From the NCBI GenBank assembly GCA_014189675.1, contig DVAE01000001.1:1-47776 (forward strand): a stretch of DNA of 47,776 nt, written 5' to 3'. The notes under the pieces were generated by a model. It worked only from the letters and a program-made list of their open reading frames with translations, had not been told where the DNA came from and made no database searches. Within the stretch, counting starts at the first letter, position 1. Every line of letters starts with the position of its first letter. This DNA comes from Candidatus Undinarchaeales archaeon SRR5007147.bin71. GTDB taxonomy: Archaea; Undinarchaeota; Undinarchaeia; Undinarchaeales; Undinarchaeaceae. Both the position numbers and the translations under genes were made by a program. Of the stretch, positions 8,223-46,507 are shown piece by piece.

Positions 8223-8286
8223 CTGCGTGCATATAGCAAATAGGTGGCATTGGCTAAATAGGTCTAAAATATTCCACAGCTTCGTA

Positions 8287-8811
8287 ATGAGGCACCAATG
8301 GGTGCCCTTTTACTTTATTCCACATTCACGCAATTTTTCATCCAAGCGTGGCTTTGCTGAATCAAATCTTCGAAGGCGTCTTGAAAAACAGGGATGGTCT
8401 GTCTGGAAAGGCCTCCTGATTGGTGCCGTACGAATGCAAGATGATTATTCAACTGCCACAGAAAAGTATGAATTACTTTCTAAATTTTTAGAAAAACACA
8501 GTGCTGAGCTTCTGGAAAAACTCCAATATTACTGCTCTGTTCATTTTGGATTTCCTGATTTTATTTGCTACAAGAATGGTGAGTGGAAGTTTGTTGAATG
8601 CAAGCTAGGCTATGAGCCTCTCAGTGAAACACAGAAAAAATGTATAATGGAGCTTCAAGTTCTCGGCTTTAATGTTGAGGTTCATAAACTAGTTAGCAGT
8701 CATACGGGAACTCGGTCTGCAATGGTAAATTTGAAGGGCTCTGGGAAAATAGTAACCAGGAAACAACTTACTCTTAATAACAGGCTCTTCAGAAAGTGCC
8801 AAAACATATAA
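8287..8811 (+). CDS. Putative VRR-NUC-type nuclease
   Basis: A 174-aa protein from the ATG at 8287; earlier in-frame starts back to 8227 exist. The C-terminal half shows a PD-(D/E)XK arrangement: GFPDF (D91), then FVECKLG (E104, K106), then PLSETQ (Q116) and VLGFNVEV. This matches the VRR-NUC/Holliday-junction-resolvase-like core. The N-terminal part is basic (RRRLEKQGWSVWKG) and could contact DNA. There is no partner restriction or repair gene nearby. The family is inferred from motifs; the target is unknown. Confidence 0.65.
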   Translation: MRHQWVPFYFIPHSRNFSSKRGFAESNLRRRLEKQGWSVWKGLLIGAVRMQDDYSTATEKYELLSKFLEKHSAELLEKLQYYCSVHFGFPDFICYKNGEWKFVECKLGYEPLSETQKKCIMELQVLGFNVEVHKLVSSHTGTRSAMVNLKGSGKIVTRKQLTLNNRLFRKCQNI

Positions 8812-8813
8812 AC
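8805..8813 (+). promoter_or_regulatory. TATA box for the zinc-ribbon miniprotein
   Basis: CATATAAAC lies about 30 nt upstream of the ATG at 8840, at the very end of the nuclease gene. Spacing is consistent with a near-leaderless transcript. Confidence 0.5.
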
Positions 8814-8839
8814 AGTTCTTATCTAATTCTAGCTATCTT

Positions 8840-9001
8840 ATGTTGAAAGAAATCAGAGACAAATTGCAGAGACTTAACAAAACAAAGACCTGTCCTGTGT
8901 GTAATTCGGGTGATATTACATACGGTTCTAAAGGTAAACCGCATTTATGCAATGATTGTGGTGTAGATATTCAGGATAATATTTCTTCTAAAACAAGGTG
9001 A
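8840..9001 (+). CDS. 53-aa zinc-ribbon miniprotein
   Basis: Begins MLKEIRDKLQRLNKTKTC and contains two Cys knuckles, CPVC and LCNDCG, separated by 17 residues (GDITYGSKGKPH between them), followed by a polar tail. This is a minimal zinc ribbon preceded by an amphipathic helix. Small zinc ribbons are frequent in archaea as nucleic-acid or translation accessories, but nothing here fixes a function. Its own TATA-like box and the Cys spacing support a real gene. It ends 54 nt before the structured RNA. Confidence 0.7.
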   Translation: MLKEIRDKLQRLNKTKTCPVCNSGDITYGSKGKPHLCNDCGVDIQDNISSKTR

Positions 9002-9029
9002 TTTTTGGGGTTTTCTATATAGAAAAAGT

Positions 9030-9037
9030 ATATAAAC
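9030..9037 (+). promoter_or_regulatory. TATA box of the tandem structured RNA
   Basis: TATATAAA centred at about 9034. Archaeal transcription usually starts 24-27 nt downstream of the TATA centre, which predicts a start at about 9058. The first helix of the RNA begins at 9056. Confidence 0.7.
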
Positions 9038-9055
9038 TCATATACATTAAAGATT

Positions 9056-9270
9056 GTGCTAGGAGGTGAAGGCGGCGCAAACCTTCGGGGGTGCGCTTTG
9101 AAGTGTTTCGAAAGGGACACGGATGCTGCTGTAAAAAGCGGGTCTTCGCTTTATGGCTCCCATAAAATGCTGGGAGGTGAAGGCAGTACAATTCTTCGGA
9201 CTTGTGCTTTGAAATATCTTGAAAGAGATATGGATGCTGCTGTAAAAAGCGGGTCTTCACAACACAGCAC
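9056..9270 (+). ncRNA. Candidate novel tandem-domain structured RNA
   Basis: Two copies of one fold lie at a constant 111-nt offset without indels. Each has P1 (9066-9071/9144-9149; 9177-9182/9255-9260), P2 with a C(UUCG)G loop (9075-9096; 9186-9207), linker UUUGAA, and P3 with a GAAA loop (9103-9120; 9214-9231). An identical 23-nt segment follows (9121-9143; 9232-9254) that may form a short P4. Four pairs change on both sides between the copies (two in P2, two in P3) and several others change G-C/G-U/A-U, preserving pairing. A 7-bp hairpin (9150-9166) links the domains, and GTGCT/AGCAC (9056-9060/9266-9270) closes the whole. The wobble pairs and canonical tetraloops exist only on the plus strand. 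The 3' end abuts the gpmA stop and has no clear T-run terminator. The RNA family is unrecognised and the function unknown; a trans-acting RNA is likelier than a riboswitch, because no plus-strand gene follows. Confidence 0.8.
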
Positions 9271-10014
9271 TTAAAGTTCTGATTGCTTAGCAACCTTTTC
9301 TGCCTCTAGTCTGGCTTTTTCAGCATCTCCTAGATAGTAATTTTTTATAGGTTTCAAGTCCTTGTCAAGTTCATAAACGAGAGGGATTCCGGTTGGTATA
9401 TTTAACTTCGTTATTTCTTCGTCTGATATCTTATCCAAATATTTTACAAGAGCTCTGAGGCTGTTTCCGTGAGCGCAGATTATCAATTTCCGTTCTTCTT
9501 TTAATGCCGGAGCAATTTGCGCATTCCAATAAGGTAGCACTCTCCCAACAACGTCTTCCAAACTTTCTGTGCTTGGAATCTCAGTTTTTTCAAGATCTGC
9601 GTAAAGTTCGTCATTTTTTGGATGCCTCTCATCATCTTCGCTCAGCGAAGGCGGTCGAACATCATAACTTCTCCTCCACAGGAAAACTTTCTCTTCTCCT
9701 TCCGTTCTTGCTGTTTCTGCTTTGTTAAGTCCTTGGAGAGCTCCGTAGTGGCGTTCGTTTAGCCTCCAGCTCCTGTGAACAGGTATTTCGGAAAGCTCCA
9801 TCTCCTTTAGAACTATGTCAAGAGTTTCTGTTGAACGTTTTAAAACTGAAGTATAGGCTTCATCAAACACATAATTTCCTTCTGATAAAAGCTTGGCAGA
9901 ATCTCTGGCTTCTTCTTCACCTTTCTCAGTCAGTCCTATATCCGTCCATCCTGTAAACCTGTTTTCAAGATTCCATACACTTTCTCCGTGCCTTAGAAGT
10001 ACTAGTTTTATCAT
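9271..10014 (-). CDS. gpmA: 2,3-bisphosphoglycerate-dependent phosphoglycerate mutase
   Basis: Interconverts 3- and 2-phosphoglycerate in glycolysis/gluconeogenesis. The 247-aa protein carries the catalytic His motif [12 protein letters not shown], the sequence [19 protein letters not shown], the phosphate-binding [16 protein letters not shown], and the second catalytic motif [15 protein letters not shown]. Length and motifs match bacterial dPGM. Most archaea instead use the cofactor-independent enzyme, so this gene was probably acquired. It starts 1 nt after the VIT-like gene and is probably cotranscribed with it. Confidence 0.95.
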
Positions 10015-11455: not shown

Positions 11456-12874
11456 TTACCCCTTCAGAACTCCAAGAGGAATCAATCTTGCCACAATTTT
11501 CCCAATTCCAAGTTCGTGCGATACTTTGACGACTTCGTCAATATCCTTGTAAGCACCGGGAGCTTCCTCTGAAACACCTCTCCAGCTTGCTGATCTAACA
11601 AGTATTCCTTTTCGTTTCAAGTCTTTCTGAACTTTTTCTCCTGTATATAGTTTATTTGCCTGATGTCTGCTCATAAGACGTCCGGCTCCGTGTGGTGTGC
11701 TCCCAAAAGTTTCCTTCATCCCTTCCTCAGTCCCTACAAGTACATAGGAAGCAGTTCCCATGCTTCCAGGTATCAGAATAGGCTGTCCGACATCCCTATA
11801 TATTTCAGGTATCTCTTTCTGGCCCGGACCAAAGGCTCTTGTTGCACCTTTCCTATGTACATAGACTTTTTTCATTTTGCCGTCTATTTCATGCTCCTCA
11901 AGCTTTGCCATGTTGTGGCATACGTCGTACATCAGTTTCAAATCAGAATCAGGGAATACTTTCTTGAATGAATTTCTTGTTTCATATGTCATAACTTGCC
12001 TGTTACACCATCCAAAATTTGCTGCCGCACTCATAGCTTTATAATAATCATCAGCGATCTCAGTTCCAAGAGGCGCGTATATCAGCTCCTTATCTTCAAG
12101 ACTTTTGAATATTTTAGGCTGTTCTGTTTCCATTCTTCTCAAATAGTCTGTACAGACTTGGTGACCGAGACCTCTTGAGCCTGAGTGTATAATTATAAGG
12201 ACTTGGCCTTCTTCCTTTATTCCAAATTTTTCCGCCGTGCTTTTATCCAGTATCTTTTCAACAGCCTGAATCTCTATAAAGTGGTTTCCGGCTCCTAATG
12301 AGCCAACCTGTTTTCGTCCGCGTTTTTTCGCACGGTCTGAAACTTTTGAAGAGTCCGCCTGCGGCATCCTTCCATTTTCTTCACAACGTTCCTTGTCTTC
12401 CTCTGTTGCGTATCCCTTCTTAATTGCCCAGTCTATTCCTGTATCAAGAAGTTCTTCAAGCTCACTAGTTTCCAGCCTTATTTTGGATTCAGATCCTATT
12501 CCTGTATGAATATTTTCATAGAGAACATTGAGAATCTCCTCTAACTTTTCCTTTACTTCATCCACTCCTAGATTGGAGCTTAATATCCGTACTCCGCAGT
12601 TTATGTCGTATCCAATGCCTCCGGGACTGATAATTCCCCTTTCTGCGTCAAAGGCGGCAACACCTCCTATTGGAAAGCCGTAGCCTTGGTGGGCGTCCGG
12701 CATCATTATTGCATGCTTGCAAATTCCTGGAAGTTTTGTCATGTTAATCCCCTGTTCAAGTGCTCTGTCCTTTTCTATATCTTCCATCAGCTTTTCTGAA
12801 GCGAAGACTTTAAGGGGGACTTTCATATCCCCCTTTTTCTCAAATACATAGGTATTTTCTGATTCTTTTTTCAT
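11456..12874 (-). CDS. rtcB: RNA-splicing ligase RtcB
   Basis: GTP/Mn-dependent 3'-P/5'-OH RNA ligase that joins tRNA exons after splicing. The 472-aa protein contains the metal and guanylate motifs MPDAHQGYGFPIGGVAAF, SPGGIGYDINCGVR, GSLGAGNHFIEIQ, IHSGSRGLGHQV, HRKGATRAFGPG and HGAGRLMSR (guanylated His). The ATG at 12874 overlaps the archease stop as ATGA; longer in-frame extensions lack RtcB similarity. There is no intein, although RtcB is a known intein host. It is the last gene of the suf-archease-rtcB run. Confidence 0.97.
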   Translation of the reverse strand: MKKESENTYVFEKKGDMKVPLKVFASEKLMEDIEKDRALEQGINMTKLPGICKHAIMMPDAHQGYGFPIGGVAAFDAERGIISPGGIGYDINCGVRILSSNLGVDEVKEKLEEILNVLYENIHTGIGSESKIRLETSELEELLDTGIDWAIKKGYATEEDKERCEENGRMPQADSSKVSDRAKKRGRKQVGSLGAGNHFIEIQAVEKILDKSTAEKFGIKEEGQVLIIIHSGSRGLGHQVCTDYLRRMETEQPKIFKSLEDKELIYAPLGTEIADDYYKAMSAAANFGWCNRQVMTYETRNSFKKVFPDSDLKLMYDVCHNMAKLEEHEIDGKMKKVYVHRKGATRAFGPGQKEIPEIYRDVGQPILIPGSMGTASYVLVGTEEGMKETFGSTPHGAGRLMSRHQANKLYTGEKVQKDLKRKGILVRSASWRGVSEEAPGAYKDIDEVVKVSHELGIGKIVARLIPLGVLKG

Positions 12875-13305
12875 ATGTCTACAACCACCTGCACTATGCA
12901 CTTTTCTGGTCTGTCGTCTACTATCATTTCACTATATGTCATGGATTTTATATTTCCTGAGACTAGATACTTTTTATCTCCTCTCTTATGAAGGTCCCCA
13001 GCTGCAAGAGCCTTCAAGGTGTAGCCTGTCGCTTCCTTATTTATTTTAAGCTCCTTTATTTCATTAAGGAGGAAATTATCAGTATCTAGGAGGAAAAGGA
13101 GCTCATCTAGGTATTCATAAAGAAGTTCAGGCAAGCCATTTCCTTGCACTTCCACGGTTTTTTCAACAATTGACTGAACCTTTTCCGTGTCAGTTAGGAT
13201 TCCAAACATCGCAAGAGCTGCGTTTGAGAAAGCTTCCTCAATAGTTTTTCCAAATGCCCTGAATTTCGCGTCTGCTGTATGTTCAAGATATTCGTATTTT
13301 TTCAT
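12871..13305 (-). CDS. Archease
   Basis: Activator of RtcB that promotes guanylation and multiple turnover. The 144-aa protein has the archease opening YEYLEHTADAKFRAFGKTIEEAFSNAA (split across the first helix), the central YEYLDELLFLLDTDNFLL and the metal-binding C-terminal DDRPEKCIVQVVVDI. It overlaps rtcB by 4 nt, its usual partner. It follows sufC by 21 nt. A TATA-like ACTTATTTAG lies about 26 nt upstream, so a separate promoter is possible. Confidence 0.95.
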   Translation of the reverse strand: MKKYEYLEHTADAKFRAFGKTIEEAFSNAALAMFGILTDTEKVQSIVEKTVEVQGNGLPELLYEYLDELLFLLDTDNFLLNEIKELKINKEATGYTLKALAAGDLHKRGDKKYLVSGNIKSMTYSEMIVDDRPEKCIVQVVVDI

Positions 13306-46265: not shown

Positions 46266-46433
46266 TGGGGCTGGAGAGATTTATAACCCACCTTTTTCCA
46301 GAGGAAAAAGTTGGACCAAAAAGCCTCGCCCTGCTCGGCTATTCTTGAGTGGGGCTGGAGAGATTTATAACCCACCTTTTTCCAGAGGAAAAAGTTGGAC
46401 CAAAAAGCCTCGCCCTGCTCGGCTATTCTTGAG
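46266..46433. repeat. Two identical 84-bp tandem repeats carrying the tRNA-Pro 3' end
   Basis: Copies at 46266-46349 and 46350-46433 are identical by eye. Each begins TGGGGCTGGAGAGATTT, which is the reverse complement of the last 17 nt of the adjacent tRNA-Pro(GGG) including discriminator; the tRNA supplies a third copy at 46434-46450. Read on the minus strand, each unit also has a T5 run, an 8-bp hairpin (CTTTTTCC-TCT-GGAAAAAG) and a TATA-like TTATAAAT formed at the junction. The copy nearest proS could supply its promoter. Confidence 0.9.
46281..46286 (-). promoter_or_regulatory. Candidate TATA box of proS inside the repeat
   Basis: TTATAA within GGTTATAAATCTC on the minus strand. It would start transcription near 46258, leaving a ~28-nt leader before the proS ATG. 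The same element recurs in the second repeat copy at 46365-46370. Confidence 0.4.
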
Positions 46434-46507
46434 TGGGGCTGGAGAGATTTGAACTCCCGACCACGTGACCCCCAGCCACGCATCATACCAAGCTAGACCA
46501 CAGCCCC
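46434..46507 (-). tRNA. tRNA-Pro(GGG)
   Basis: On the minus strand, acceptor GGGGCTG pairs with CAGCCCC. Anticodon stem CGTGG/TCACG encloses CTGGGGG with anticodon GGG. T-arm is GGGAG-TTCAAAT-CTCTC, discriminator A. No intron or CCA. It stands directly upstream of proS, separated by the 84-bp repeats. A TATA-like CTTATATCTC lies ~34 nt upstream. Confidence 0.94.

Follow-up and report, generated by a model that had tools for sequence, protein, structure and literature searches.

Positions 9056–9270 on the plus strand of the window, as we call the whole 47,776-nt stretch of DNA analyzed here, hold a real structured RNA made of two domains. The locus is almost certainly a structured noncoding RNA gene without a known family, with a predicted length of ~215 nt, and it very probably stands alone and acts in trans. 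The best explanation as a whole, an independent two-domain RNA gene that pairs with the 3′ end of 16S rRNA, is put forward tentatively and falls short of probable. The genome concerned comprises 623,718 bases in 39 contigs, and SRR5007147.bin71 is among the marine Undinarchaeales MAGs of Dombrowski et al. 2020 (0.62 Mb; PMC7414124).

Fold of the two domains

The tandem arrangement described in the earlier note, two copies at a constant 111-nt offset and free of indels in the core, was recovered at 9057–9147 and 9168–9258 (81% identity), in agreement with TRF. Numbering each domain from 9056 (A) or 9167 (B) as position 1, domain A (9056..9157, +) forms a four-way junction built from the short closing helix P0 (3–6/99–102), P1 (11–18/87–94), P2 (19–24/37–42 plus 27–28/33–34, with a UUCG loop), P3 (48–54/59–65, capped by a GAAA loop), and P4 (71–75/82–86, capped by a GUAAAA loop); domain B (9167..9268, +) has the same five helices. 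The interdomain linker UCCCAUAAA (9158..9166, +) is the same in both species known to carry the RNA, and together with C9157 it supplies a CUCCC that can pair with GGGAG of domain B. Each copy folded alone gave the same four-way junction. Folding z-scores were −3.8 and −4.4 for the single domains and −5.3 for the whole RNA, with no shuffled sequence folding as well.

The four double changes reported previously, in P2 (9077/9094 vs. 9188/9205 and 9082/9089 vs. 9193/9200) and in P3 (9103/9120 vs. 9214/9231 and 9105/9118 vs. 9216/9229), are real, and a fifth lies in P0, a helix absent from that account (domain positions 6/99, A-U to G-C). Twenty-five differences separate A from B, and they break 0 of 32 pairs; random replay of the changes broke 6.6 pairs on average, and none of 20,000 simulations reached zero. 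Because the structure was derived in part from the two copies themselves, the second species serves as an independent test of the fold. Only one pair was broken between species against 4.9 expected (P = 0.008), 10 of the 11 changes at paired sites were compatible with pairing, and helices received 11 of all 13 changes; the helices, whose conservation elsewhere had been left as a question, are thus retained in this homologue. Standard pairs fill 99.2% of pair cells across the four sequences, and double changes occur at seven pairs, vs. 37–54% and zero to two, respectively, in slid-partner controls.

P2 and P3 are variable in sequence with pairing kept; hardly any change is seen in P1, P4, or the junction strands. 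Two details of the earlier description needed amendment: the unchanging 3′ segment spans 27 nt (GGATG...GTCTTC) rather than 23 nt, and one of the four copies has UCUGAA in place of the supposedly invariant linker UUUGAA. Function of the plus strand, also claimed there, holds up, since the 18 G-U pairs would read A.C on the other strand; the minus strand folds much more weakly. A domain-swapped topology, in which the 5′ strand of A pairs with the 3′ strand of B, is predicted to be 2.6–3.6 kcal/mol better than separate halves. Pairs 1-104 and 2-103 favor the swapped outer helix and pair 6-99 favors pairing within domains; the separate-domain fold is preferred.

Gene context, distribution, and known RNA classes

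An archaeal promoter is predicted at 9023..9036 (+), consisting of a purine-rich, BRE-like AAAAAG followed by the TATA box TATATAAA at 9029–9036. The distance from the first T of the box to the start of the RNA is exactly 27 nt, the spacing expected for an archaeal promoter; box and distance are equal in the second species, and AAAGTATATAAA occurs once in the window. The predicted 3′ end, ACUUAAA (9269..9275, +), is approximate and abuts the stop codon of a convergent gpmA-like gene (His_Phos_1; 9271–10014, −). Upstream, a zinc-ribbon-like ORF of 53 aa with two CxxC motifs (8840–9001, +) terminates before the promoter and is syntenic in the sister species. A family search with this protein gave no match above the cut-off; it is a possible partner protein for the RNA.

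In the sister species (G002), the tandem RNA is present with unchanged gene order and 94% identity, whereas gpmA is 80% identical, the VRR-NUC gene 89%, and the intergenic DNA on the 5′ side 72%. A strict pattern search of 84,980 species' genomes matched only this species. Covariance-model searches of all six genomes of the phylum, and then directly of the larger part of G005 and of G004, a Naiadarchaeum-like genome that is 98% complete, returned chance hits only (E 0.4–6). Searches of phages and plasmids yielded no homologue, and pattern matches in IMG/VR were rejected by the covariance model, which found nothing in them or only local, weak matches. The lack of the RNA in G001, the genus's third genome, carries no information, since the contig there breaks off within the upstream gene. 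Within the collections searched, the RNA appears confined to one genus. Its two flanking genes (8227–10014), VRR-NUC upstream and gpmA-like downstream, are likewise restricted to this genus among the six phylum genomes, and the RNA may therefore sit in a genus-specific island. A tie between the VRR-NUC protein and mobile elements was rejected, as a search yielded no viral relatives.

Comparison with Rfam agrees with the earlier claim that the class had not been described: even at E ≤ 10 nothing beyond chance was found, the covariance models (including archaeal Hgc RNAs, riboswitches, and ribozymes) gave only chance hits below the gathering threshold (E 1.5–7.9), and the scan of the window brought only tRNAs to threshold. 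A divergent RNase P or SRP RNA was rejected, given that the sister genome holds normal copies of both besides this RNA. Likewise rejected were an H/ACA sRNA, as P0 is followed by UCCCAUAAA (A) or ACUUAAAGU (B) instead of an ACA box, and a box C/D sRNA, as RUGAUGA is missing from both domains.

Two further features of the window are recorded here. At 46266–46450, a perfect 84-bp tandem repeat (2.2 copies) begins inside the 3′ end of a tRNA-Pro gene (46433–46507, −), and the last ~17 bases of the tRNA (AAATCTCTCCAGCCCCA) are present three times through the repeat, a pattern suggestive of repeated attachment-site remnants left by an element targeting tRNA-Pro. At 11456–13305 (−), an RtcB ligase gene stands beside an archease-like gene, identified from its translation only; beyond them, what appears to be a SUF gene block extends to 18316 (translations only).

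Complementarity to 16S rRNA, a kink-turn-like core, and alternative roles

The invariant GGAGGUGA strand is complementary to the final nucleotides of 16S rRNA. In domain A, AGGAGGUGA (9061..9069, +) complements the last 9 nt, its GGAG (9062–9065) lying in the P0/P1 internal loop; in domain B, GGGAGGUGA (9172..9180, +) forms eight Watson-Crick pairs and one G-U pair with the same end. We used the 16S rRNA of the sister species (1464 nt, 3′ end ...GAUCACCUCCU) because that of the window's genome was hit in pieces, with its 3′ end beyond the contig end. Across this 16S rRNA, the window's RNA has its longest Watson-Crick match in AGGAGGUGA, which falls on 1456–1464, the extreme 3′ end; for the sister-species RNA, another 9-nt match elsewhere in 16S rRNA equals it in length. 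Only 24/2000 and 14/2000 dinucleotide shuffles reached −15.8 kcal/mol with the 16S tail, SRP RNAs, RNase P RNAs, and tRNAs of the group gave −6 to −12 kcal/mol, and none of the 41 gene starts examined pairs as strongly. No start codon lies within reach of AGGAGGUGA or GGGAGGUGA. Since GGAG is invariant and the opposite loop strand varies freely (UUUA/AACA/AAAA), the constraint on GGAG seems to be on its sequence rather than on any pairing with that strand. With the RNA known from just two species and its tandem copies paralogous, the anti-SD match amounts in effect to a single observation (p ~0.01, post hoc).

Opening the 9 nt costs 9–11 kcal/mol vs. 15.1 gained; the GUGA half of the 9-mer is buried in P1, which full nine-base binding would open. 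In the predicted fold, GGAG of domain A is mostly open and GGGAG of domain B is masked by the linker CUCCC, so the domains may differ in role.

The stretch joining P2 and P3 resembles a kink-turn. In domain A (9097..9125, +) it comprises UUU as L1–3 (9097–9099), GAA (9100–9102), P3, GGA (9121–9123), and UG, and domain B has the same core (9208..9236, +). All four copies contain U-U/C-U, GAA, P3, and GGA, which match the exact Kt-7 core (GAA/GGA), as well as the pairs G45.A68, A46.G67, and A47.G66; this arrangement requires pair 19-42 to be open, so that L1 competes with P2 for it. In Kt-7 of H. marismortui, GAA-GAA and GGA occupy the same places, and A.G at 3b.3n gives the best metal-ion folding (PMC4382518). 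Related genomes totaling 1.02 Mb contain 3291 hairpins of seven base pairs, and just 4 of these carry the GAA/GGA combination, a background against which the match, itself spotted post hoc, is unlikely to arise by chance. The invariant C41-G20 supplies the Watson-Crick pair at −1b.−1n that ends a C-helix. In this reading the C-helix would be P2 and the NC-helix P3, and the non-bulged strand would carry two insertions, P4 and P1. The k-junctions known so far carry a single helix at that place (PMC10573300); having two, this junction does not fit the three-way arrangement, and it may work like a k-junction without being a standard member.

We propose that the TATA promoter would drive plus-strand transcription of the ~215-nt RNA as an independent gene and that the RNA would fold into the two repeated four-way-junction domains supported by the comparisons above. 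The Kt-7-type core between P2 and P3, recognized as a sequence match, would then bend each junction and leave the invariant purine strand (A/G)GGAGGUGA accessible at the domain base. Acting in trans, one or both domains might pair with the CACCUCCU 3′ end of the small-subunit 16S rRNA and so compete with mRNA leaders or hold free subunits, the second domain perhaps contributing avidity or regulation. Binding to the small subunit through the 16S 3′ end is, on this reasoning from sequence, possible but somewhat doubtful. The fuller proposal is more doubtful again: that this is a dedicated Undinarchaeota RNA class in which each four-way k-junction domain presents a complete Shine-Dalgarno strand lacking a start codon, captures the 16S 3′ end, and regulates translation or ribosome storage.

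A protein-binding scaffold, in which the two kink-turn or GA-rich junctions recruit L7Ae or the upstream zinc-ribbon protein and GGAG forms part of the binding site or of a tertiary fold, is a possibility that we regard with similar reserve; it is nearly as likely as the 16S pairing, and the two could combine. UUU-GAA-P3-GGA is the Kt-7 core, including A.G at 3b.3n, L7Ae-family proteins are described as kink-turn binders (PMC5061560), and the zinc-ribbon ORF keeps its place in both species, yet the protein it encodes lacks a family match above the cut-off. Moreover, neither of two k-junctions assayed with L7Ae was folded by it, the additional helix being the probable obstacle on the C-helix side (PMC10573300), which lowers the standing of an L7Ae RNP, our first reading of the kink-turn.

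That the GGAGGUGA or CUCCC segments instead make this a trans-acting sRNA aimed at mRNAs, not rRNA, we consider unlikely. Archaeal sRNA154 and sRNA41 do act on ribosome-binding sites (PMC5867862) and the linker CUCCC looks like an anti-SD, but the conserved strand is SD-like and not anti-SD-like, and typical base-pairing sRNAs are simpler than two rigid junctions. Self-cleavage or another catalytic activity is very improbable: the conserved core nucleotides at a four-way junction would speak for it, but Rfam ribozyme families are unmatched and the sequence gives no hint of a cleavage site. The earlier note leaned toward a tandem aptamer, and the conserved loops and junctions and the tandem layout would suit a cis-acting riboswitch; such a role has almost nothing left to recommend it, because the RNA has its own TATA promoter and is no gene's 5′ leader, the next gene, gpmA, being convergent on the opposite strand. 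Finally, a short coding repeat can be dismissed, for although a 72-aa frame is open at 9056–9274 and 111 = 3 × 37, 9 of the 12 codons changed between species are non-synonymous, the stop is lost in the relative, changes cluster at paired sites, and a Pfam search gave no match.

Relation to known systems

The result is a well-supported RNA gene in a ~0.62-Mb Undinarchaeota genome, whose tandem four-way kink-turn fold and rRNA match give direct predictions; if the 16S contact is true, it would be an archaeal ribosome-targeting RNA with a dedicated gene. A search of a review of archaeal regulatory RNAs found no mention of any DPANN lineage. What is new is the fold variant and its narrow phylogenetic home; stand-alone structured RNAs are already known as a kind.

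Archaeal H/ACA guide RNAs consist of repeated domains with a kink-turn, as does this RNA, which differs from them in its four-way junction and in lacking both an ACA box and a single-hairpin pseudouridylation pocket. With Kt-7 and the k-junctions of the TPP riboswitch and DUF-3268 RNA it shares a three-nucleotide bulge followed by G.A and then A.G pairs, a C-G pair ending the C-helix, A.G at 3b.3n as in Kt-7, and extra helix on the non-bulged strand; the known k-junctions are three-way, whereas here P4 and P1 make the junction four-way and two such domains stand in tandem. Stand-alone structured RNAs were found by comparative genomics in Weinberg et al. 2010 (PMC2864571), and the pan and STAXI motifs described there, in tandem units, resemble the present RNA in being supported by covariation and without an assigned function; unlike those motifs, it matches the covariance model of no Rfam family.

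Among ribosome-associated ncRNAs, the purine-rich 5′ segment of Staphylococcus SprF1 binds ribosomes and competes with mRNA, and Haloferax Val-tRF binds 16S rRNA near the mRNA channel (PMC8938821). These and Haloferax s194 are an antitoxin RNA, a tRNA fragment, and a small RNA, respectively, whereas the RNA described here is a two-domain structured gene with a complement to the 16S 3′ end, this complementarity being the one element of ribosome association seen here.
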